Shown: positions 19,738 to 34,633 of the stretch, one piece after another
Layout of the letters: the number at the start of each line of letters is the position of its first letter
How positions within the stretch are numbered: the stretch's first letter is position 1
DNA from: a virus
DNA: 34,633 nt
Virus record (IMG/VR): IMGVR_UViG_3300044301_001096
Coordinates: 1 to 34,633 of that record
Direction: 5' to 3' (one strand)
Notes under the pieces: generated by a model
What the model was told of the DNA's origin: nothing
Database searches by the model: none
The model's input: only the letters and a program-made list of their open reading frames with translations
Translations under genes and position numbers: made by a program

Positions 19738-22700
19738 ATGACTAGACAAGAATATGTAAAAAAGTTGATTGCTGATGGTGGTTACACTAGTGATCAAATA
19801 TATCAAATGTCTCAAGCTGTTGCGGAAGCACCAGTAAAGACAAACGATCCTGCTGTAAAAGCGGAGACCAATGCAGGATCGACAAACGATATGGTCTCAG
19901 AATCGGAAAGTGGTTTATCGGAATCACCTATACTACCGGGAACTGTAATAACAAAAGGAGGTTATGAATATAAATTCCATGTAGATGATGAAACGGGTCA
20001 AGGTGAATATTATAGAAGACCAGCAGGTGAAGATGTAACATGGACAGATTTAGGTAAAGACGAAAGCGAAGCTGGTATGCTTGATAAAGCTTCTGCTGCT
20101 TACCATTTTGGACACTCAGATATGAGTCCAGAAAAAAGAAAAGAATATGAAGAGCAAATAAAAGCTCATGAACAGTATAAAAAAGATAAAGCTGCTGCTA
20201 TAAAAAAATACAATGAAGATAATAAAAAAGGTGTATTAGGTATATTAGCAGGAGATGATAATAAGTTTTTTGGTAATTTTGGCTTAGGTGAAGGAAAAGA
20301 ATTTACTTGGGATGCTTTTACTAAAGACATATCTGACATGAAGTTTGGAGAGTCAATAGCTAGAGCTGGAGGCGAAGGTGTAGAATTCATAATAGACGCG
20401 GCTGATTTTAAAATTAGTAAACTAGCTTTAGAACCTATAGCTGGAGCTTTAAATGCTATGGGTGTTTTAGATTTAAGTGATTATGAAGATGATTCATGGG
20501 ACGGTGTTAGTTTTGACAATGTAATTAATAATATTGTAGCAGAGTTTGTAGTAGGTGATCCTGCTTATGAAGGTTCATATGATTTTGGTGAAGAAGTAGG
20601 TGATCTTGTAGAGTCTGGAATATTAAACATTGGTGCTGGTATGATGGCTGTACCAAAGTTATTAGCTGATACTAAAAAAATGATTGGAGATAGTATAGGT
20701 GAATATTTACCTCCTGGTGCACAAGCAGTTTTAAAATCTCCATTAATGAGAGCTACAATGCCTGGATTATCTGCTATGAATGATATAAGTCAAAAAGGTT
20801 TAGTTGAAGCTGGCGAAGAAGGTTATAATGTGTTTAGTAAAAAAGCTGAACAATTAAACATGACATTAGCTGATTTTGGAGATGTAGGTATGGCTGAAAT
20901 GATGGGTGATGCTTTTACAGGTGGTGATGAAGGAGATTATGATATGAAAAAAAGACTTGCTTCTTTTGTTGCTGGTAGTACTAGAATTACAGCATCAGCT
21001 TTAGGATCATTACCTTCAGTGGCTCAATCAATGATACCTTATGTAGGTATTGCTTCTATTGTAGCAGGTGAAGCAGCTAGAACTAACATGGAAAGCGCGC
21101 AAGATGGTAGACCATTAAACTGGGGAAGATTAGCACACGCATATACAACAGGTGCTTCAGAAGGTTTACTAGAACTTGTTACTAAGAAAATTGGTGCAGG
21201 TATGTTTAAAGGATTACGTGGTGGTGGTAAAGAAGCAATTGAACAAAGTCTTAGACAGTATGGTACTAAAGTAATGAAAGAGTTTGGTCAAGAAGGTTTA
21301 TCAGAAGTTGGTACATTACTCATAAATCAAGCAGCTGATTATATATATAAAGATGAAGTAGATCAGTTCTTACCTAAATGGGGTGAAGTAATAGATACGT
21401 TCTTAATTGGTGGTGTTATGGGTGGTGGTATGTCTGCTACAGGTGTTGGTGGACAATTAATAAGAAATACTATTTCAAGAAAAAATATTAAAGGTAATTT
21501 ACAAAAAGCAGGTTTTAGTAATCTAGCTAGCATGTTTGAGTCTGTTAATCCATTTACAGAAGGTGGTTTATCACAAGAAATAGGTAGTGGTATGGAAGAC
21601 TCTACAACTCAAATAACTGAACCAGGACAAACAAACCAAGGAGATTTAAAAATAAAAGATCCTAAAGCACCTAATCAAAGAACAGATCAGGATACTAAGA
21701 AAAGTCTTACTCAAACAGAAATAAAACAAACACAAGAAACAGCTCAAGAACAAGCTGCTAGAGAATCAGTTTTAACAGAAAGACCTAACGATATTGGTCA
21801 ACAAAATGAAGCTAAAACTGTTACTATAAAAGATGGTAAACCAGTAAGTGAGTTAACAACTGATGAAAAAGCTGATGCTTACTATGATGTTCTTATGAAT
21901 CCTTCAACAGAAACATTTTTAAATACAGATTTAAAAAGAAAAGTTGAAAGTGGTCAAATGACTACAACTGAAGCTGATCAAATAAAAGCTAATTTTAAAG
22001 CTCAACAAGGTGCAGCAAATAGAATGCAAAATTTAGGCTACAGTGGAGAGCAAAGACAAAAAGCTATAGGTTTGTTAGCTGAAAAACAAAATTTAGAAAA
22101 TAAAATAAAAGACGTTAATGATAAATCTTTAACGCAACCTGAGCAAGCTAGAATAGAAGAAATAAATAGTGAGCTTAGTGCTATACCTAGATCAGCAGAT
22201 CAACAAGCTAATATAGATGCTCAGGTAGAAAAAGATATAGAGTTTACTGAAAAATTTGGTAATGTTGGTAAAAAAGATGGAGAGTTTGAAAATGCTGTTG
22301 GTGAAAACAAAGCTGTACAAGTATTTGAAACAACTCAAGAGTTTGAACAACTTGCTAAAGATAATGGTATAGATGTAGATGCTGATGTAGATGGATTTGT
22401 ATTACCTAATGGTCAGATATTCTTGAACAAACAAAAAATGAGAGAAGCTGGAGCTATAGGTGTTGGTAGACATGAGTTGCTACATAAAGTACTTAAGCAA
22501 CAATTTAGTGGACCAAATGGTGAAAAGCTAAAAGATGAGTTCTTAAAAATACTACAAGAATCAGATCCAGTAGGTTACGCTTTATTAATGGATAAAATGA
22601 AGTTATATTCAGAGCAAGAGTTGAAAGATGCTCCTGATGAATACTTAACAAACTACGCTTCATTATTAATGGAGAATAAAATACCTCTTGAAACGTTTGA

Positions 22701-25700
22701 AACAAAACCTTCATTAATAAAAAGATTAGGAGACTTCTTCTCTAGAATATTCTCTGATGCTGCTAATGAAAATCCAGTTGGACAAAATGTTAAACCAAGT
22801 GATATAGGTTTTGAAAGTGGTAAAGATTTATATGATTTTGTTAGAGGATATGTAAAAGATTCTGAAGCAGGTGTTTTATCTGATAGAGCTCAACAGTTGG
22901 CTGAACAAGGTGTAGCACAAGGTAAAGTTAAAAAATCTAAAACTAAAGCAGATCCACTAGATGCTATAAATGATTTAATACCAGCTGATATAAAAACTAA
23001 AAAGCAGTTTGATGACTTTATAAGTGATAATAGATCAGCACTTAAAATAGCTCAAGCATTAGATCCAGGTGGTGTAATAAATAACTATATAAGATCTAAG
23101 CAAACAAGTCAAGAACAAGGTAATAAAATGCTTGATGAAGTCCGTCTTCGTATGTTTAATTTTGATCCTGAAGCTGTAAGAGCTGATGGTACAGTTGTTG
23201 GACCTAAAGGTTTTGGTGAATCAATATTTGCTAATACTAGGTTTGCTAAAATGGTAGCAAATAAAGATTTAGCTCTAGAAGGTGAAACTAGAAAAGCAAC
23301 AAAAAGCATTGACAGTGAAGGTTTTGTAGAACCAACTACACGTAAAGACAAAAGTAAAAAAGATACTAAACCTAAAGAAAAAAGAAAATCTCAACTACCA
23401 AGAAGTACTACAAAATTTACTACTAATTTTGCATCAAATCTAGGTATAAATGTAGAAGGAAAAACACCTAAACAACTACAAGAAGAGATTCAAAAACAAT
23501 TTGATAAAGCTATAGCTAAAGATTTAAAAGCTAATCCAGTTAAAACCTTTGGTGAAACTAGAAACATCGGTCCAGCAGTAGCTGCTTTAATGGAAAAAGC
23601 AACTGGTATGCCTGCTAAAGTTTTTACAGATAAGTCTCAAAATATTCAGAAAAAAGATGCTAAATCTGGTGCTTTAACAGCTGTTAAACAATATCTATAT
23701 AATAATGCTCAAAGAGATTTTAATAATCTCCCTGATGCATTTGATACTGCCACTGGTAAAGCTAATTTTATACCGGAAAATATAAAAAGAGCATTCTATA
23801 AAAAAGATTCTAAAGGTAAATTTATTTTAGATAAAAGCAAAGGTCTTAAAGATTATCAAAATTTACTAGGTGAAATGGATAAACCTGTGTATAGAGCTAG
23901 TGAAGCTCAAACAATAAAAGGTTTGGTTGGTTTATCACTTAGAAATAGAATATTTGAACAAGCAATGCCTGATCCTATTGCTAGAAAAACTACAGGTGTT
24001 AAGTTTTCAAAATCTAAAGTAAATAATAGTTTATTAAAAACATTAGATAATAATGATATTAAGGGTGTTATGGAGACGCTTGGTGTTTCACGTGAAGACG
24101 CAACTGTTACACAAGCAAATAGAAAGAAAATACAAAAATCTATTCTAAAAAGTGTAAAAGCTGCAAAAATACCATTTGATGTACTTAGAAGATTAGGTCT
24201 TTCTAATTTTGGTGCAGAGAGAAGAGTAGATAGTAATGGAAACTACATTTATAAGCTAGATAATGGAGCGGAAATGATAGGTACTCCTACTTTAGATAAA
24301 AATGGTAATCAAAAACTAGATAAAGAAGGAAAGAAAATTTTTACTGTACCAAGTAAACAAGCTATAGAACTTGCTTTTCCAGGACAAAATGTAAAAGTTT
24401 TAGCAGCTAAAGGATCATTATTTTACGGTTCAGGTGATCAAGCTTTAATAGATATACAAAATGCAGCTAAAGATAACAACAAGTTTTATACTCCAAAAGA
24501 ATTAAGTAACTTTAGAAAAGTTAAAAGAATAACAATTCCTGCAGGTAAAAGATTAACATCGAAAGAAAAAGCAGCTAATAAAGCTCAGGAAAAGATTAAC
24601 ATGGATGCGTTAATGAGTTTTATTGATATGTTAAAAGGTGTGCCAATGAGAGAAGCTGGTATATTAGTTAGACAATCATATGCTGCTACAAGTGGTTTAA
24701 TAAAAATAGCAGCTCCTTTTGTAGGTGTATCTGAAAGATTTATAAAAGCTAAAGATGGCAAACAAGCTGACAGAAAACAACCTTATATAGAAGAACATAG
24801 TCCACCAGTGTCTGTTGTAGGCGCAGCTATTTTATGGGGATTAAAAAATGGTAATCTTAATAAAATAAAACAAGGTATTAAAGATAATTTTGTTCAAATA
24901 CAATTAGCTAATAATGCGGATCGAAAATTAGATCTAGCTAAACTTGATAAGTTATTACCTGAAGGAGTTAGTATACTTACTCCAAATGCTGGTTTAATAA
25001 GATTAGCAGCTGCTGGTATAAATTTAAATACTATACAAGATTTAAATAATCCAGGTAAATCACTAGCTGATAAAGCTGGTTTACCTTTACCAAAAGAATT
25101 AAGATCTAATCCTAGTGCATTTAATTATCAAAATAGATTATTAGTAGATTCAGGTGCTTTAGAATTTGATTCTAACAAAGATACGTTTTTAGATAAACCT
25201 ATAATGACTATAGAACAAGCTAAAAATGATTTGAAAATAAATAGACCCGTTGCTGTAGCTAAAAATAATAATGTAAAAAACGCTAGTAGAACTTTAAACA
25301 ATCAATTGTTTTCAGATAATCAAACAGCAGAGCAAATGAAAACTGTTATGGTTAACTCACTGGAAACAAAGGTGAAAGCCTCTAGAAGTAATCCTGAAAG
25401 AAAAGGTATTAGTGTTTTTGATTTTGACGATACACTTGCTAGAACAAAAGAAAGAGTTATAGTTAACATGCCTGATGGTAAGATTAAAGAAATATCAGCT
25501 AGTGAATTTGCTAGAGATGCTGGTAAATTTACAGAACAAGGTGCTGAGTTTGATTTTAGTAATTTTGAAAACGTTGCTAAAGGAACTAAAGAAGGACCAC
25601 TAGCAGAGCTTGCTAGAAAACGTCAAGGTAAATTTGGTTCAGGTGATATATTTGTTTTAACAGCAAGACCTAATTCAGCTGGTCCAGCAATACAAGCTTT

Positions 25701-28179
25701 CTTAAAAAGTATTGGTATAAATATACCTTTGAGAAATATAACTGGTCTTAGCGATGGTACACCACAAGCTAAAGTAGATTTTATATTAAATAAAACTGCT
25801 GAAGGTTATAATGATTTTTATTTTGCTGATGATTCGTTTGCAAATGTTAAAGCTGTTAAACAGATATTAGATGCTGTAGATGTTAAAAACAAAGTACAAC
25901 AAGCTAAATTTAGTAAATCAAAAAGATTAAACACAGAGTTTAATAAAATAATAGAAGAAGTTACTGGTAAAGAAGCTTTCAAAAAATATTCTGATGCTAG
26001 AGCTAGGCTAGAAGGTAAACAAAAAGACGGAGGTTTACTTAAAAGAATTGGTAAACAGTTTACAATAACACCATCAGCAGAGGATTTTGCTGGATTAACT
26101 TATGCTCTTAGAGGAAAAGGTGAACAAGGTAATAGACATGCTGACTGGATAGAAAATAATTTAATTCGTCCTTATAATAAAGCTGAACAAGCTTTATTGT
26201 CAGCTAAAGTTAGAGTATCAAATGATTTTGCTGCATTAAAATCTAAATTTCCAAGTTTAAAAAGAAATTTCTTTAGTCTTAAAAATCCTTTATTACAAAA
26301 AATTGGTGATGGACCTTTTATTAAAGAGCAAGCTGTAAGAGTTTATATATGGAATAAGCAAGGTATGGATATACCAGGCATGTCTAAAAGAGACATAGCG
26401 GATTTAGTTAAAGCTGTTGAAGGTGATCCTGAATTAAGACAATTTGCTGATGAGCTAAGTCTTATTCAACCAACTGAAGCATATCCTGCACCAAATAAAA
26501 ACTGGTTAGGCGGTAATATAAAAGATGATATAATAAATGGAATGGACACTGGATTTAGAACAAAGCTTATGGCTGAGTTTAATGAAAATGTAGATGCTAT
26601 ATTTACTCCAGAAAATTTAAATAAACTAGAAGCTATATACGGAACTAAATATGTTGAAGCTTTAAAAGATTCTCTACGTAGAATGAAATCTGGTAGTAAC
26701 AGACCTGTTATAACTGGTAGTGGATCACGTGCTGTTAACGAAATGCTTGACTGGTTGAACGCTTCAGTAGCAAATGTTATGTTCTTAAATATAAAATCTG
26801 GTTTACTACAGACATTATCTACTGTAAATTTTATAAATTGGGGTGATAATAATATTATAAACGCTAGTAAAGCTTTTGCAAGCAAAGAAATGTGGCCAAC
26901 ATTTATGAGATTAATGAACTCTGACTACTTAGTTAATAGACGTGACGGTTTAAAAATTAATGTAAACGAAGCTGAACTTGCTGACGCTGCTAAACAAGGT
27001 GGTATAAAAGGTGCTTTTAGTTATTTAATGGATAAAGGTTTTATTATAACAAGAATAATGGATAGTTTTGCTATTGCATTAGGTGGAGCACCATTTTTTA
27101 TTAACCGTAAAAAAGCTTTACTTAACAGGGTTAATCCTAAAACAGGTAAACTATATACTGAAGCAGAAGCTGATCAACAAGCATTTGATGATTTCTATGC
27201 TGTAGCGGAAGAAACACAACAGTCTAGTAATCCTAGTAAAATATCATCTCAACAAGCTAGTATAGCTGGTCGTGTGTTATTGGCTTTCCAAAACGTAACA
27301 ATGCAGTTTAATAGAAAAATTAAGAAGTCAACATTAGATTTATACAATAGACGTAAAAAACCTGGTATGACTCAACGTGAAAGTGATTTAAGTAATTTCT
27401 CTAGTATTATATATTATGCTGCAGTACAAAACTTTGTATTTAACGCTATGCAACAAGCATTAATGAGTATGTTCTTTGAAGAAGAAGATGAAGAAGAAAG
27501 AAATAGATTAGCTAATACTGCTAACGGTATGATTGATTCGTTGTTATTTGGTTTAGGTTTTGGTGGAGCAATAATATCTACAGTTAAAAATGTAGCTATG
27601 AAAGTAGCTGATGAATCTGAGAAAAAATCTCCAGATTATGAAGAAGCAGTGTGGGAAATATTCAATGTATCACCGGTGTTAGATTCTAAAATTAGAAAAG
27701 CTAGATCATCTGCTAAAACATTTATGTGGAACATGGATAAAATAAGAAGGCGAGGTTGGAGTATAGAAAACCCTGCTTATTTAGCTATAGCTCAACTTAT
27801 AGCTGCAAGTACTAATGCACCTGTTGATAGAGTTTTACAAAAATATAACAACTTATCCAATGTATTTGACAATGAAGTAAGAACTTATCATAGAGTTATG
27901 ATGCTTTTAGGTTGGAACGGTTGGAACTTTGGATTACCTTATTGGGGAAGACAAAGCACTTTAGATAGAGAACAAAAAGAAGATGAGCAACTACAAGTAA
28001 GTTACAAAGAAGCAGTTCATAAAGTAAAATTCGCAGGATTTACTAAAAAAATACCATTATCAGGACCAAATCATTATAAACCAGAAGGCGAACTCAACGT
28101 GGATTATATGCAAGTTGAAAGACCAGATGGAACAATACAGTATTACGTAAAACCCACAAATTATAAAAAGAAAAAATGA
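19738..28179 (+). CDS. Giant polyvalent virion protein (2813 aa) with zincin motif and HAD phosphatase-like domain
   Basis: The product is one open chain of 2813 residues. Residues about 210-615 alternate amphipathic and small-residue hydrophobic helices (for example SLPSVAQSMIPYVGIASIVAG), as in ejected internal proteins. A linker rich in Gln, Thr and Lys follows. HELLH at 912-916 is a zinc-peptidase (HExxH) motif. A HAD-type domain lies at about 1890-2050: DFDDT with Asp1895 and Asp1897, Thr1975 in VLTARP, and Asp2031-Asp2032 in FADDS. KFSKSK occurs at 1422-1427 and 2057-2062. The final 700 residues are helical with a basic tail. Family knowledge: large polyvalent proteins combine such domains and travel into the host with the DNA. 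Inference: an internal core protein that opens the envelope and modifies host molecules. It overlaps the next gene by 4 bases (ATGA). Confidence 0.7.
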   Translation: MTRQEYVKKLIADGGYTSDQIYQMSQAVAEAPVKTNDPAVKAETNAGSTNDMVSESESGLSESPILPGTVITKGGYEYKFHVDDETGQGEYYRRPAGEDVTWTDLGKDESEAGMLDKASAAYHFGHSDMSPEKRKEYEEQIKAHEQYKKDKAAAIKKYNEDNKKGVLGILAGDDNKFFGNFGLGEGKEFTWDAFTKDISDMKFGESIARAGGEGVEFIIDAADFKISKLALEPIAGALNAMGVLDLSDYEDDSWDGVSFDNVINNIVAEFVVGDPAYEGSYDFGEEVGDLVESGILNIGAGMMAVPKLLADTKKMIGDSIGEYLPPGAQAVLKSPLMRATMPGLSAMNDISQKGLVEAGEEGYNVFSKKAEQLNMTLADFGDVGMAEMMGDAFTGGDEGDYDMKKRLASFVAGSTRITASALGSLPSVAQSMIPYVGIASIVAGEAARTNMESAQDGRPLNWGRLAHAYTTGASEGLLELVTKKIGAGMFKGLRGGGKEAIEQSLRQYGTKVMKEFGQEGLSEVGTLLINQAADYIYKDEVDQFLPKWGEVIDTFLIGGVMGGGMSATGVGGQLIRNTISRKNIKGNLQKAGFSNLASMFESVNPFTEGGLSQEIGSGMEDSTTQITEPGQTNQGDLKIKDPKAPNQRTDQDTKKSLTQTEIKQTQETAQEQAARESVLTERPNDIGQQNEAKTVTIKDGKPVSELTTDEKADAYYDVLMNPSTETFLNTDLKRKVESGQMTTTEADQIKANFKAQQGAANRMQNLGYSGEQRQKAIGLLAEKQNLENKIKDVNDKSLTQPEQARIEEINSELSAIPRSADQQANIDAQVEKDIEFTEKFGNVGKKDGEFENAVGENKAVQVFETTQEFEQLAKDNGIDVDADVDGFVLPNGQIFLNKQKMREAGAIGVGRHELLHKVLKQQFSGPNGEKLKDEFLKILQESDPVGYALLMDKMKLYSEQELKDAPDEYLTNYASLLMENKIPLETFETKPSLIKRLGDFFSRIFSDAANENPVGQNVKPSDIGFESGKDLYDFVRGYVKDSEAGVLSDRAQQLAEQGVAQGKVKKSKTKADPLDAINDLIPADIKTKKQFDDFISDNRSALKIAQALDPGGVINNYIRSKQTSQEQGNKMLDEVRLRMFNFDPEAVRADGTVVGPKGFGESIFANTRFAKMVANKDLALEGETRKATKSIDSEGFVEPTTRKDKSKKDTKPKEKRKSQLPRSTTKFTTNFASNLGINVEGKTPKQLQEEIQKQFDKAIAKDLKANPVKTFGETRNIGPAVAALMEKATGMPAKVFTDKSQNIQKKDAKSGALTAVKQYLYNNAQRDFNNLPDAFDTATGKANFIPENIKRAFYKKDSKGKFILDKSKGLKDYQNLLGEMDKPVYRASEAQTIKGLVGLSLRNRIFEQAMPDPIARKTTGVKFSKSKVNNSLLKTLDNNDIKGVMETLGVSREDATVTQANRKKIQKSILKSVKAAKIPFDVLRRLGLSNFGAERRVDSNGNYIYKLDNGAEMIGTPTLDKNGNQKLDKEGKKIFTVPSKQAIELAFPGQNVKVLAAKGSLFYGSGDQALIDIQNAAKDNNKFYTPKELSNFRKVKRITIPAGKRLTSKEKAANKAQEKINMDALMSFIDMLKGVPMREAGILVRQSYAATSGLIKIAAPFVGVSERFIKAKDGKQADRKQPYIEEHSPPVSVVGAAILWGLKNGNLNKIKQGIKDNFVQIQLANNADRKLDLAKLDKLLPEGVSILTPNAGLIRLAAAGINLNTIQDLNNPGKSLADKAGLPLPKELRSNPSAFNYQNRLLVDSGALEFDSNKDTFLDKPIMTIEQAKNDLKINRPVAVAKNNNVKNASRTLNNQLFSDNQTAEQMKTVMVNSLETKVKASRSNPERKGISVFDFDDTLARTKERVIVNMPDGKIKEISASEFARDAGKFTEQGAEFDFSNFENVAKGTKEGPLAELARKRQGKFGSGDIFVLTARPNSAGPAIQAFLKSIGINIPLRNITGLSDGTPQAKVDFILNKTAEGYNDFYFADDSFANVKAVKQILDAVDVKNKVQQAKFSKSKRLNTEFNKIIEEVTGKEAFKKYSDARARLEGKQKDGGLLKRIGKQFTITPSAEDFAGLTYALRGKGEQGNRHADWIENNLIRPYNKAEQALLSAKVRVSNDFAALKSKFPSLKRNFFSLKNPLLQKIGDGPFIKEQAVRVYIWNKQGMDIPGMSKRDIADLVKAVEGDPELRQFADELSLIQPTEAYPAPNKNWLGGNIKDDIINGMDTGFRTKLMAEFNENVDAIFTPENLNKLEAIYGTKYVEALKDSLRRMKSGSNRPVITGSGSRAVNEMLDWLNASVANVMFLNIKSGLLQTLSTVNFINWGDNNIINASKAFASKEMWPTFMRLMNSDYLVNRRDGLKINVNEAELADAAKQGGIKGAFSYLMDKGFIITRIMDSFAIALGGAPFFINRKKALLNRVNPKTGKLYTEAEADQQAFDDFYAVAEETQQSSNPSKISSQQASIAGRVLLAFQNVTMQFNRKIKKSTLDLYNRRKKPGMTQRESDLSNFSSIIYYAAVQNFVFNAMQQALMSMFFEEEDEEERNRLANTANGMIDSLLFGLGFGGAIISTVKNVAMKVADESEKKSPDYEEAVWEIFNVSPVLDSKIRKARSSAKTFMWNMDKIRRRGWSIENPAYLAIAQLIAASTNAPVDRVLQKYNNLSNVFDNEVRTYHRVMMLLGWNGWNFGLPYWGRQSTLDREQKEDEQLQVSYKEAVHKVKFAGFTKKIPLSGPNHYKPEGELNVDYMQVERPDGTIQYYVKPTNYKKKK

Positions 28180-29345
28180 AACACTTATTAACACTATTAT
28201 TATTAGTAACCTTTTCTTTTCAAGCACAAGATAAGAAAAAATTATTTAAAGATTTTTTTAAGTACAGTACACTTTATGTGTCAGGTGATATTAAAAATTC
28301 TAAAGAAAATGCACCCAGTTATTTTGTAAGAACAAATCCTAATGGAAGCCTATATGATGTACCCGTTGTAGTTGACGGTACTGATTATTACGAGCATGAT
28401 TATCGCTATGGTTTTGGTATTCGTAAGATCGCTAGGTTTGATTATGAAATTAAAGGCAAACAATACTATGATGGGACTGAATCTAACGTATCTATGACAG
28501 CTCCTAATTCAGCTATTAAAGGTTTTGAATATGTATTTCATACAGAAAAAGAAAGAGTCAGAGATGATGTATTTAAAAATCACCGATATTTCTTAAAACA
28601 CAGTGGAAAATACCATATTGTAAAGGTAGAAAGTAGAAAACAAGGTAAAGTAAATTTTGATTATAAATCTGCAGAATTAAGAGCTAAATTACCTATTGGT
28701 AAAAAGTTTAGTTTATCAGGTGGAATTATGTATCGTACACATGAAAGACCTTATGGTTATAATCCTGTAGAAATATGGTTAAATGAAACAACACCAGATG
28801 GATATGCAGTAAACCCATGGTACACGCTTGGTTTTTATTATGGTTATGATGATATTTATTATACATCAGAAGATCAAAATGGAAACGAAGTAAGTGATTG
28901 GTACTGGATTAATCCTGAAGGTGAAACTGTGGCTTATACTGATTTACAATTTAGACAAACAGTGTTTACTGATCTTATGAATCGTTATAATAATGAGATA
29001 TGGGCAGATATAGATGCTTTTGGTGTTATATCACCAGTGCTCGGTTTTGACTTTTATCATTATAAAAATAACTTCTGGCTTCATGCTTATGGTTCCTACT
29101 TATTACCATATCATAAATATGTAAAAGGCGATGAAGACTTTAGTTATCATAACAGAAACAATTGGGGATTAGGTGGATTAATACAAGATGCTGAAAAAGA
29201 ACAATGGGAAGATTACCAAACCGGAGTACAGTTTGGATGGAAATTAAGCAAAAACATAGGAGTATTTGTAGAAGGCGAATACACTAAGTTTTGGGATAGT
29301 AGAATATATAACAGTTCAGTTGGTCTGAACATAACACTAAAATAA
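28176..29345 (+). CDS. Exported beta-barrel-like (outer-membrane) protein
   Basis: A clear signal peptide (Lys2-His3, then LLTLLLLVTFSFQ) ends at Ala17-Gln18, the style common in Bacteroidota. The mature 372 residues are very rich in Tyr, Trp, Phe, Gly and Asn, with alternating polar/hydrophobic strands (FSLSGGIMYRTHERPYGY, NFWLHAYGSYLLPYHKYV, SKNIGVFVEGEYTKFWD). The end, SSVGLNITLK, looks like a last barrel strand but lacks the usual terminal aromatic. Inference: a transmembrane beta-barrel placed in the host outer membrane, possibly to block superinfection or alter permeability. A secreted non-barrel beta protein is the alternative. The ATGA overlap with the giant gene shows it belongs to the late operon. 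Confidence 0.6.
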   Translation: MKHLLTLLLLVTFSFQAQDKKKLFKDFFKYSTLYVSGDIKNSKENAPSYFVRTNPNGSLYDVPVVVDGTDYYEHDYRYGFGIRKIARFDYEIKGKQYYDGTESNVSMTAPNSAIKGFEYVFHTEKERVRDDVFKNHRYFLKHSGKYHIVKVESRKQGKVNFDYKSAELRAKLPIGKKFSLSGGIMYRTHERPYGYNPVEIWLNETTPDGYAVNPWYTLGFYYGYDDIYYTSEDQNGNEVSDWYWINPEGETVAYTDLQFRQTVFTDLMNRYNNEIWADIDAFGVISPVLGFDFYHYKNNFWLHAYGSYLLPYHKYVKGDEDFSYHNRNNWGLGGLIQDAEKEQWEDYQTGVQFGWKLSKNIGVFVEGEYTKFWDSRIYNSSVGLNITLK

Positions 29346-29346
29346 A

Positions 29347-29577
29347 ATGAAAAAAATAACTTTAATCTTATTATTATTAATAGCTTTTAATACTAACGCG
29401 CAGAAAAGAACAAACTGTGTTACAACTATTGTAGAAAAAGTGAATGACTACAAAGTAAAAGTAATTAGAAAGAATACATGTGGTGAAAAAACAGTTATAA
29501 AGATTCAAACATATTTGAAAAAAGACTGGCAAGCATTACAGAAAAAAAGAAAATTAAGAAAAAGAAAAACTAAATAA
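29347..29577 (+). CDS. Small secreted basic protein
   Basis: The 76-residue precursor has a signal peptide (MKKITLILLLLIAFNTNA, predicted cut Ala18-Gln19). The mature 58 residues are strongly basic, with a Lys/Arg-rich tail (KKRKLRKRKTK) and two Cys (in NCVTTI and NTCGEK) that could form a disulfide in the periplasm. A basic tail could bind lipopolysaccharide, peptidoglycan or DNA. No family recognised. It starts one base after the barrel-like gene ends and its stop forms TAATG with the lipoprotein gene. Confidence 0.65.
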   Translation: MKKITLILLLLIAFNTNAQKRTNCVTTIVEKVNDYKVKVIRKNTCGEKTVIKIQTYLKKDWQALQKKRKLRKRKTK

Positions 29578-30020
29578 TGAAAATATGGAAAATTGTCCTT
29601 TATGTGGTGGCCATTGCGGCCTTTGCTAGTTGTGGAACATACACACAAGCACCAAAAAACACTATTAAAGTACTAGCGGTTACTCATGAAGGTGATACTA
29701 TTCAGCTTGATGTTAACTCGTTAAGACCTAGAGTATACCAAAATATTTATCACACTTATCCTTATTACCATAATTATTGGAGACCATCTCCTTATTATGG
29801 ATCATGGGGTTGGGGTAATTATTATTACACAGTACCAAGACCACAAGTAACAGTACCTAATGTACCTAATGTTACATTGCCAAATACTAAACCTACAGGT
29901 ACTTATAACAGACCATCTAATGTAGGAACAGGACCATCGTTATCACCAAGTTTAAGCACACCATCTAACAATACAATAAATAAATCAAATGGCAGCACCC
30001 CAAATAAGCGAAGAAACTAA
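29577..30020 (+). CDS. Tyr/Pro-rich lipoprotein; outer-spanin candidate
   Basis: A lipoprotein signal is evident: basic start, hydrophobic core, then FASC with Cys19 as the lipid site. The mature part has a short beta domain (NTIKVLAVTHEGDTIQLDV), a striking Tyr/Trp segment (about 61-84, with YYGSWGWGNYYYT), and a Pro/Thr/Asn/Ser-rich tail (VPNVPNVTLPNTKPTG and beyond). A Pro-rich lipoprotein next to a membrane/coiled-coil gene resembles the outer spanin (Rz1 type), which fuses inner and outer membranes at the end of lysis. Its 3' end overlaps the next gene by 32 bases. Alternatively it is a surface lipoprotein of the infected cell. Confidence 0.6.
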   Translation: MKIWKIVLYVVAIAAFASCGTYTQAPKNTIKVLAVTHEGDTIQLDVNSLRPRVYQNIYHTYPYYHNYWRPSPYYGSWGWGNYYYTVPRPQVTVPNVPNVTLPNTKPTGTYNRPSNVGTGPSLSPSLSTPSNNTINKSNGSTPNKRRN

Positions 30021-30279
30021 GGTAACATTAGATCTTAAAACTATTGGAATGATCGTAGCGTTTGTAGTAACCATAGCAGGTATGTGGTTTACATTACAAG
30101 CAGATATAGCTCAGGCGAAGGAATTACCCGTGCCAGTTATTGATAGAGTAGAGTATGATCTAAAAGACGAATTGATACGTCAGACAATAATGGATACTCA
30201 AGAAGATGTAGAAGAAATAAAAGAAACTATTGATAAGATAGATCAAAGATTGTACGATATACAAAGTAAACAAAGATAG
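29989..30279 (+). CDS. Membrane-anchored coiled-coil protein; inner-spanin or holin candidate
   Basis: This 96-residue protein has a short N-terminal part (MAAPQISEETKVTLDLK), one membrane segment (about 19-37, IGMIVAFVVTIAGMWFTLQ) and an acidic coiled coil (about 55-94, DLKDELIRQTIMDTQEDVEE...). An N-in/C-out topology with a periplasmic coiled coil fits an inner spanin; a holin is the main alternative. It overlaps the lipoprotein gene by 32 bases. In known spanin pairs the membrane gene usually comes first and the lipoprotein overlaps or nests in its end, so the order here is reversed. The Ala-Ala-Pro start was chosen because it is the only ATG upstream of the membrane segment. Confidence 0.6.
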   Translation: MAAPQISEETKVTLDLKTIGMIVAFVVTIAGMWFTLQADIAQAKELPVPVIDRVEYDLKDELIRQTIMDTQEDVEEIKETIDKIDQRLYDIQSKQR

Positions 30280-30280
30280 T

Positions 30281-30679
30281 ATGAAATACTTAAATATAAT
30301 TTTACTATTAATGTCGTTTAGCATGTCTGCTCAAGAGTGGATTACAGATGATAATTTTGATAGTAAAATAAATGAAAGAAAAGCTTTTGGTGATGATCAA
30401 TCATTACCAGTAGCTGTAGAGTTTTACGCTAAGTTTAACGATGCAAATAAATTTGAGGACTGGAGTAAATTAGAAAATGTAATATATTACAGAGCTGATA
30501 TATCAAATAGTCCTGAAGCTAAAAAGAAATATAAAGTACGAATGGCACCAACTTTAATTATATTTAAAGACGGTATTAAAGAAGTTATATTCAAAGCAGG
30601 TTTAGATCTTGTGTTACCTGCTGATTTACAAGAAATACAAGAATCAATAAATGAAATTAATAACGCAAGTAAATTTTAA
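30281..30679 (+). CDS. Secreted thioredoxin-fold protein lacking the CxxC site
   Basis: The 132-residue precursor has a signal peptide (YLNIILLLMSFSMSA, predicted cut Ala17-Gln18). The mature part follows the thioredoxin pattern: VAVEFYAKF (44-52) corresponds to the strand before the active site, and VRMAPTLIIFKDG (86-98) is the cis-Pro loop and next strand, with Pro90. Where CGPC should stand, residues 53-56 read NDAN, followed by the expected Lys57. There is no Cys anywhere in the protein. It cannot do thiol chemistry and may instead bind a periplasmic partner. It starts one base after the previous stop, within the export and lysis block. Confidence 0.65.
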   Translation: MKYLNIILLLMSFSMSAQEWITDDNFDSKINERKAFGDDQSLPVAVEFYAKFNDANKFEDWSKLENVIYYRADISNSPEAKKKYKVRMAPTLIIFKDGIKEVIFKAGLDLVLPADLQEIQESINEINNASKF

Positions 30680-31267: not shown

Positions 31268-31416
31268 TGAAAAAAAGAAAATTAAATAGTACGAATCCTA
31301 AATACTATCCTGTAAAAGATGAGGAAGTTAAAGATCGTAAAGAACTAATAGCTACAATACGTAAAGGCAGAAAAAGAGATATACATGTCTATGCTGTATT
31401 TAGCGAAGCTGAATAA
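31267..31416 (+). CDS. 49-residue basic hypothetical protein
   Basis: A short frame starts in a TAATG overlap with the preceding stop and ends at TAA 31414-31416, one base before the ATG of the peptidase gene. The product is basic and hydrophilic (MKKRKLNSTNPKYYPV..., LIATIRKGRKRDIHVYAV), ending in an acidic SEAE. The exact spacing to both neighbours, as elsewhere in this operon, is the best evidence that it is translated. No family recognised. Confidence 0.5.
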   Translation: MKKRKLNSTNPKYYPVKDEEVKDRKELIATIRKGRKRDIHVYAVFSEAE

Positions 31417-31417
31417 T

Positions 31418-31882
31418 ATGGAAAACATAAGTAAACATATAACTTACGCAGAAGCGATACACTCACAAACAGCTAAACGTAAGTGTATAGATAACACACC
31501 TAATCCTACACAAGTAGAAAATATGAAGGTGTTAGCAGAAAAAGTATTTGAACCATTAAGATTATGGGTTGGTGGACCTATAAAAGTTAATTCATTTTTT
31601 AGATCACCTGAACTTAATGAAAAAATTGGTGGGTCAAAAACCTCACAACATTGCAAAGGTCAAGCAATTGATATAGACGATGTGTACGGTTACAAAACAA
31701 ATGCAGAAATGTATGCATGGGTAAAAGAAAATTTAAATTTTGATCAAATGATATGGGAGTTTGGAACAGACATGAATCCAAACTGGGTACATATATCATA
31801 CGTATCAGAAGAAGACAACAGAAACAGATGTTTAAAAGCCTATAAAGATGACATGGGCAGAACTAAATACAAAACAATATGA
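31418..31882 (+). CDS. M15-family peptidase (endolysin or virion-type DD-peptidase)
   Basis: The frame is open from an ATG at 31385, but ATG 31418, one base after the previous stop, is the better start, giving 154 residues. The family signature is clear: SQHCKGQAIDI (77-87) supplies Zn ligands His78 and Asp85, and WVHISY (123-128) supplies His125. VNSFFRSPELN before it is also typical. M15 peptidases cut peptide cross-links of peptidoglycan. No signal peptide is present, so a holin or another route must release it. Its place after spanin- and holin-like genes supports an endolysin role. Length is that of a single-domain M15 enzyme with no cell-wall-binding domain. Confidence 0.82.
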   Translation: MENISKHITYAEAIHSQTAKRKCIDNTPNPTQVENMKVLAEKVFEPLRLWVGGPIKVNSFFRSPELNEKIGGSKTSQHCKGQAIDIDDVYGYKTNAEMYAWVKENLNFDQMIWEFGTDMNPNWVHISYVSEEDNRNRCLKAYKDDMGRTKYKTI

Positions 31883-33472: not shown

Positions 33473-33488
33473 TAACTAACTAACTAAC
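33473..33488. repeat. TAAC x 4 short tandem repeat
   Basis: Four TAAC units overlap the 3' end of the reductase gene. Read on the - strand this is GTTA repeated, which contains the stop codon of that gene (33484-33486) and supplies stops in all three frames. It may simply be a stop cluster produced by slippage. Confidence 0.6.
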
Positions 33489-34633
33489 CATCGCACGCAA
33501 CACAGTCTTGCATTGCTTTTTGTGCAATATCTCCACGTAGTACACTTTCGGTACGCATATAATATAAGGTTTTAATACCTTTTTTCCACGCATCTAAATG
33601 TACTTGATTAATCCATTTAGGACTTGCCTCAGCTGGAAACGCTAAGTTTAAACTAACTGACTGATCTATGTATTGTTGGCGTATTCCCGCTTGTCTAACA
33701 AGTTCTAGTTGATTAATTTCTTTAAACGTTTTAAATACTTCTTTTGTATCATCGTCTAATTCTTTTATATCTTGTACTGAACCACCATCCGCTAATATTT
33801 TGTCCCAAGTTTCTTTGTTGTTTATTCCTATCTTTTCCAGAACTTTAACAAGCGTAGGATTTTTCCGTATAAATGTGCCCTTAGCTGATTGTTCGGTGAA
33901 TACGTTAGCTGCCCAGGGTTCAATCCCGGGACTAACATTTCCAGAAAGTTTACTATTACTAACAGTGGGAGCAACAGCGCGTAAATGGGTATTACGAAAG
34001 CCAGTACCGACGCACCAAAGAGGTTCTCCATAAACATCAGCAAGAGCCATACTAGCTCTTTCAGATTCGATTTTGATTTGGCTAAAGATTCTTCTAGTTT
34101 CATATTGTGATAATAAACCCTCAAATGGTAAACCTTTTTCTTGTAGATATGTATGCCAACCTAATACACCGAGACCTAATGCTCTACCTTTTTCAGCAGA
34201 TCTTACAGCGTTTTCAAAACCTTTTCTGTATTTAGCTCTTTGTATAAATTCTTCAAGCACACCATCTAAGAACCATATTGAGTCATAAATGATATTTGTA
34301 TTTTTCCACTCGTCATACTTAGCTAGGTTTAAGCTAGACAGACAACAAACGAATGAATGATTTTCATCTGTATGTAAAACTATTTCACTACAGATATTTG
34401 TCATATGCACTTTAAGTGCGTTGTCTTTATATGCTATTGGGTTATTTTTATTTGTGTTTCCCTTAAATAAGATATAAGGTTCACCAGTAGCTTTACGTTT
34501 TTGTAATAACTTCCCCCATTTTTTTCTAGCGTTGTTATCTCCTGCAACAAGTCTTCGCATAAACTTATCGCCGACAACCGCGCATTGATGTAAGTTAAGG
34601 GATTGTCTGTTGACGTCTCCTTTTGGTTCTCTA
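33484..34633 (-). CDS. nrdA: Class I ribonucleotide reductase large (alpha) subunit, C-terminal part
   Basis: The frame is open to the window end (about 382 codons), so the N-terminus lies outside. Active-site features of class I reductase are visible: TNICSEI (Asn, Cys and Glu, as 437/439/441 of E. coli NrdA), the partner Cys in VCCLSSLNL, PTVSNSKLSGNVSPGIEP as a phosphate-binding loop, RQQYIDQSVSLNL, the tyrosine pair in TLYYMRTES, and the C-terminal redox pair in DCVACDG. The enzyme makes deoxyribonucleotides for phage DNA synthesis. It is transcribed convergently to the late genes and belongs to an early or replication module. The stop lies in the TAAC repeat. The ATG at 34560 is internal and not the true start. 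Confidence 0.9.
   Translation of the reverse strand, partial: REPKGDVNRQSLNLHQCAVVGDKFMRRLVAGDNNARKKWGKLLQKRKATGEPYILFKGNTNKNNPIAYKDNALKVHMTNICSEIVLHTDENHSFVCCLSSLNLAKYDEWKNTNIIYDSIWFLDGVLEEFIQRAKYRKGFENAVRSAEKGRALGLGVLGWHTYLQEKGLPFEGLLSQYETRRIFSQIKIESERASMALADVYGEPLWCVGTGFRNTHLRAVAPTVSNSKLSGNVSPGIEPWAANVFTEQSAKGTFIRKNPTLVKVLEKIGINNKETWDKILADGGSVQDIKELDDDTKEVFKTFKEINQLELVRQAGIRQQYIDQSVSLNLAFPAEASPKWINQVHLDAWKKGIKTLYYMRTESVLRGDIAQKAMQDCVACDG

Follow-up and report, generated by a model that had tools for sequence, protein, structure and literature searches.

The window analysed here, the complete 34,633-nucleotide stretch of IMG/VR virus record IMGVR_UViG_3300044301_001096, includes three genes on the plus strand, here called the trio. 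The first (nucleotides 28176 to 29345) codes for a predicted outer-membrane beta-barrel protein of 389 amino acids with a signal peptide, the second (29989 to 30279) for a 96-amino acid single-pass membrane protein with a C-terminal coiled-coil-like tail, and the third (30281 to 30679) for an exported 132-amino acid protein with a thioredoxin fold in which NDAN replaces CxxC. The stop codon of the second gene sits 1 nt from the ATG of the third. The order of the trio is constant amid quite different flanks on contigs of up to 213 kb. Two inconstant neighbours are present in the window, both on the plus strand: a gene for a Tyr-rich, 147-amino acid lipobox lipoprotein (29577 to 30020), found in 70 of 230 loci, which shares 32 nt with the start of the membrane-protein gene, and a gene for an M15 peptidase endolysin (31385 to 31882; Pfam 4e-16, PHROG endolysin 3.7e-33). 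At a minority of loci (L168, L169, L171, L173 and L204) the trio is accompanied by a gene for a lipoprotein of about 180 amino acids with the motif LDGESFDP. Upstream of the trio lies the gene for a very long protein of 2813 amino acids (19738 to 28179), relatives of which occur in 182/230 loci. Elsewhere in the window, nucleotides 810 to 1415 code for a co-chaperonin GroES-like protein (PHROG 6.9e-21) and nucleotides 33484 to 34632 of the minus strand for the end of a putative ribonucleotide reductase large subunit, named from its sequence and neighbours and truncated at the edge of the window. Podoviruses of Flavobacterium, Cellulophaga and Tenacibaculum have terminases related to that of the window. 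The 34.6-kb window may be a fragment, in which case additional lysis genes could be located beyond its ends.

Translation of the ORF at 30281-30679 gives N53-D54-A55-N56 (AAC GAT GCA AAT, nucleotides 30437 to 30448) at the position of the CGPC of E. coli thioredoxin, and no cysteine anywhere in the protein. The product matches PF00085 with 26.8 bits (curated cut-off 23.5, E 5.4e-6), as do 36 out of 36 aligned relatives, and its top match among PDB sequences is a thioredoxin (E 9e-5). An AlphaFold2 model generated from the alignment of the 36 relatives (pLDDT 82.1, pTM 0.75) has the thioredoxin order of beta strands and alpha helices. Several solved thioredoxins superpose on it with Z values of about 15 and an rmsd of 1.4-1.6 over 95-98 residues; VIA-align Z values were 15.3 for D. 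radiodurans Trx2 and 14.7 for S. aureus Trx (rmsd 1.4, 95 residues). The original prediction of a thioredoxin fold with NDAN for CxxC and no cysteine is borne out by Pfam, the model, the PDB superposition and the translation, and structure prediction against thioredoxin, the check that had been named beforehand, returned this fold and not a different one. The positions of the groove were placed by alignment to thioredoxin. P90 (nucleotides 30548 to 30550), in the A-P-T sequence of residues 89-91, occupies the cis-Pro position of thioredoxins, is found in 198/198 relatives and is expected from homology to have the cis geometry. The sequence KAGLDL (residues 105-110, nucleotides 30593 to 30610) corresponds to the loop after beta5, the third wall of the groove; it is kept in all 125 members of the first set of relatives and in 153 of 194 in a wider set, the remainder having close variants. 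The C-terminal end of the NxxN proteins, ASKF or ASQF, is conserved as well.

Residues 1-17 (nucleotides 30281 to 30331) have the characteristics of a signal peptide, in which a hydrophobic stretch leads to S-M-S-A|Q, with Q18 as the predicted mature N-terminus. This glutamine is invariant in 125/125 relatives and fits the Q-rule described for signal peptidase I of Bacteroidetes (PMC5837995), which indicates Bacteroidota hosts. The A|Q site and the invariance of Q18 argue for the export that had been proposed. A function as a cytoplasmic processivity factor is ruled out by the signal peptide in the relatives.

Relatives of the thioredoxin-fold protein numbered 131 in a first viral scan and 340 in a profile scan, and pooling of the scans rendered 198 distinct proteins. 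Position 53 is Asn in all 198 and position 56 in 195, the other three, members of a deep branch, having Arg. Asn is encoded by AAT in 145 cases and AAC in 53 at the first site, and by AAT in 161 and AAC in 34 at the second; this use of both codons at both sites points to selection on the residue. Since, in addition, two base changes separate Asn from Cys codons, the motif can be considered the product of selection rather than of a recent point loss. The latter, raised beforehand as something that homologues with an intact CxxC would reveal, is rejected because none of the 198 relatives has a CxxC and all of them have Asn at the first site. As judged from their sequences the NxxN proteins probably share one origin: they form one side of a branch with 100/96 support when compared with nine CxxC thioredoxins, in a tree whose outgroup is small and whose branches are long, so that it does not fix the root or the origin. 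Exactly one cysteine, at position 57, 77 or 112 and never as part of a CxxC, is found in 117 of 125 mature close relatives; these positions are mostly mutually exclusive, and a cysteine at position 72 also occurs. The position of the cysteine shifts between clades, and 19/198 relatives have none. Taken at the sequence level, hundreds of uncultured marine phages encode an exported, redox-dead thioredoxin fold in which the Cys pair is almost always Asn.

The membrane-protein gene is the upstream neighbour of the thioredoxin-fold gene in 194 of 195 distinct cases. Among the 198 it is found at position -1 in 190 and at -2 in four; three are at contig edges and are left out of the 195, and one lacks it. 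A scan seeded with the membrane protein identified 78 new loci, and in 78/78 an exported NxxN thioredoxin came directly after it; the copy in L302 is cut before the motif and the motif in L299 was read by eye. The product of 29989-30279 consists of one transmembrane segment and a charged helical tail. In the main family the numbers of positive residues around the segment are 1.9 before and 2.2 after it, a distribution of charge that does not decide the topology. In the deep branch a basic N-terminus (IKKKK, KIKGKK) precedes the segment, from which the coiled coil can be assigned to the periplasm. The tail beyond the transmembrane segment has about 59 residues, roughly 9 nm if helical, which is short for spanning the periplasm alone when compared with the about 25 nm given for lambda Rz/Rz1 (PMC5295617). 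Three other proteins (L173:11786-12115, L209:9395-9706 and L226:1761-2060) share the N-terminal transmembrane half, have another tail (RIKWPRGEMGALPDDAKQDL), match phrog_20984 and are encoded by genes with no thioredoxin gene directly after them. The original prediction had suggested a host periplasmic protein as the binding partner. The constant companion is instead the phage's own upstream membrane protein, usually together with the barrel, and on this gene arrangement the phage protein is the more likely partner.

The protein encoded at 28176-29345 has a signal peptide and is, according to its model, an outer-membrane barrel. The AlphaFold2 model has about 12 long strands and moderate confidence (pLDDT 72.6), and the PDB matches listed for it are all outer-membrane proteins, the best being CymA (Z 12.1). 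No family was found when Pfam and PDB sequences were searched with a profile of the barrel. The gene is present in 218/230 loci, and an exported protein of about 400 amino acids precedes the pair formed by the membrane-protein and thioredoxin-fold genes in 110 of the 118 loci with enough context. When a scan was seeded with the barrel, the pair turned up at every locus except those truncated within the barrel gene. Most pairs of the deep branch have no barrel gene beside them.

Variation in the groove is correlated with variation in the membrane protein. Where the cis-Pro loop departs from RMAPT, the membrane-protein motif EYDLKDELIRQT is altered too in 12/12 cases with RTIPH or KTIPH, 8/8 with RMVPT, 6/6 with KSVPT and 3/3 with KAAPT; the exception is RMPPT, with which the motif is unchanged (2/2). 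When positions of the thioredoxin-fold protein with 5-60 minor-allele cases were scanned, position 89 had the strongest association with variants of the membrane-protein motif ELIRQT (phi 0.67; Fisher 3e-18, with no correction for kinship or for how many positions were scanned), and positions 113, 110 and 88 came next; all four are in the cis-Pro loop or in the one that follows beta5. Contrasts between nearest neighbours at position 89 show five of five pairs changing together against a base rate of 11%. By mutual information A89, M88 and T91 are found within the top 20 pairs between the two proteins, and the top pairs between the thioredoxin fold and the barrel avoid both loops. The covariation reflects few independent events and may be inflated by shared descent; the co-changes of the two loops suggest, at the level of sequence, that one helix in the membrane protein is clamped by the dead groove.

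The explanation that we favour, with a confidence somewhat above even, is that the thioredoxin fold is a redox-dead periplasmic adaptor whose groove sits on the membrane partner, both belonging to a phage module that spans the envelope and has a spanin-like late use. As judged from its sequence the protein is exported by Sec and signal peptidase I, and its groove (the start of the NxxN helix, the cis-Pro loop and the loop behind beta5) is kept under selection. It would have lost redox chemistry for good and would act by non-covalent binding in the host periplasm. What the groove most likely holds is the periplasmic helix YDLKDELIRQT in the upstream membrane protein, a proposal suggested by the fixed pairing of the genes and the correlated changes. 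The pair would be tethered to the inner membrane and, through a presumed physical link with the modelled barrel, would form a module that spans the envelope. From its near-constant adjacency to the genes for the membrane protein and the barrel, the exported fold is probably a component of a phage assembly that crosses the host envelope rather than a redox enzyme. The binding role proposed at the outset for a dead, exported protein is consistent with the conserved replacement, the signal peptide and the retained groove loops. The weakest step is the last one, in which the module would most likely serve late, coupling or destabilising the inner and outer membranes around the action of the endolysin, spanin-like and with other parts. 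The proximity to lysis genes that had been noted is true of the window, where the M15 gene is close, but does not stand as a general rule: an M15 endolysin lies within six genes in 66 of the 118 distinct loci with enough context, a proportion that weakens the lysis step. A part in lysis timing, which had also been suggested, is possible. A lysis-phase role is favoured because of the setting in the window and in the deep branch, where the pairs adjoin an M15 endolysin and a holin-like gene, and the module is probably late and lysis-related. A more general reading, to which we give a probability somewhat below even, is that the barrel, the helix-clamping NxxN fold and the inner-membrane coiled-coil anchor compose a trans-envelope machine shared by marine Bacteroidota phages and used for lysis, superinfection control or another envelope task.

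The NxxN protein shares with thioredoxin (PF00085, TrxA) the fold, the cis-Pro position and the groove loops, and differs in the absence of CxxC, the export, the ASKF/ASQF end and the membrane partner. The processivity factor of the T7 DNA polymerase is the host's intact cytoplasmic thioredoxin, which serves by binding and not by redox chemistry; here a phage would likewise use the fold for binding, and the protein is instead phage-encoded and exported. The closest functional precedent for the NxxN protein with its membrane partner is TraF of the F plasmid, a periplasmic thioredoxin-like fold without CXXC whose partners are TrbI, a bitopic protein of the inner membrane, and components of the outer membrane (PMC7555446). 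Both cases combine a periplasmic CXXC-less fold, an envelope-spanning complex and a bitopic inner-membrane partner. TraF, however, is a 26-kDa protein of a pilus system, is encoded in the tra operon and has an extra N-terminal domain that binds TraH, whereas the NxxN protein has 132 amino acids and one domain; no tra genes were recognised among the neighbours listed at the trio loci, and the likeness to TraF, TrbI and other Tra proteins is one of architecture, without demonstrated homology. With the lambda spanins Rz/Rz1 the pair has in common a small single-pass, presumably inner-membrane protein, a coiled coil that would be periplasmic and a location in the phage late region, and the membrane protein has a weak Rz-like match in PHROG (E 0.054). 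In contrast to Rz1, the partner here is a soluble thioredoxin fold with a Q-rule signal peptide and no lipobox, and a barrel is added; the thioredoxin-fold protein is thus not the outer-membrane lipoprotein of a two-component spanin, and a lipoprotein is encoded nearby in a minority of loci only.

Holin T of phage T4 is a single-pass membrane protein with a periplasmic domain, and the periplasmic phage protein RI binds it and delays lysis. This layout of a single-pass protein and a periplasmic partner resembles that of the pair, with the barrel as an extra element and no link in sequence or fold seen. The pair could accordingly be a T-like holin and an RI-like regulator that delays lysis. A single transmembrane segment with a presumed periplasmic tail, encoded beside an exported protein and, in the window, near the M15 endolysin, is compatible with this idea, 29989-30279 codes for the only small non-secreted protein of the window with a clear transmembrane helix near the endolysin, and there is a weak PHROG holin match (E 0.08). 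However, in the deep-branch phages the cassette includes a holin-like gene apart from the pair, another small membrane-protein candidate is encoded nearby in 47 of 118 loci, and no sequence match with T4 RI or T was found, so that we consider this reading unlikely. Superinfection exclusion or envelope remodelling, in which the phage barrel with its periplasmic and inner-membrane anchor would block later phages or alter uptake, is rather unlikely but deserves a little more weight; it would account for a phage-encoded outer-membrane barrel as the third nearly constant part and for the frequent location of the trio away from an endolysin, at some loci beside ribonucleotide reductase genes, but not for the pairs of the deep branch, most of which do without the barrel.

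A periplasmic chaperone, or a redox protein with a single Cys, that acts on envelope or virion proteins of the phage would also retain a binding groove, and most close relatives do have a single cysteine. The window copy has none, the shifting of the cysteine between clades and its complete loss in some relatives argue against such chemistry, and the almost invariable pairing with a single membrane protein favours a single partner, making this an improbable alternative. Decay of a former thioredoxin on its way to loss has in its favour only the missing CxxC; in view of the conservation of both Asn residues and of many other invariant positions, its probability is negligible.

No description of such a three-gene module was found in the literature. 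A tblastn search of 50,697 named-phage records with the window and divergent members did not find the trio: the thioredoxin-fold member gave only weak matches to ordinary phage thioredoxins or chance ones, and the other two members gave none. HMM searches of the compared loci of the cultured relatives Elemovirus, phi13:2, phi38:1 and Manatee Spring MW202828 gave nothing above noise for any of the three genes. In cellular genomes NxxN was found in 1 of 295 in one class, this being the query genome, reached through its own phage-like locus. A scan of genome contigs yielded five loci that resemble phage contigs binned into MAGs; L158, L160 and L161 (PBPJ01 contigs) and L159 (DQLC01) seem to be phage contigs that ended up in MAGs of Woesearchaeota and Alphaproteobacteria. 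Only unimolecular spanins have been reported in Bacteroidetes phages (PMC12596118), which raises the question of how many marine ones open the outer membrane. The gene set, conserved in a variety of uncultured phages and not found among the named-phage records searched, makes a testable candidate for outer-membrane opening or another envelope function. With the Cys pair fixed as Asn and the groove kept, the protein is also a clear example from nature of an enzyme that became an adaptor. In six loci (L289, L305, L308, L327, L330 and L331) a second thioredoxin with an intact CGPC and no evident signal peptide is encoded about 12 genes upstream of the NxxN gene, which indicates that the exported NxxN protein is not simply the thioredoxin of those phages.
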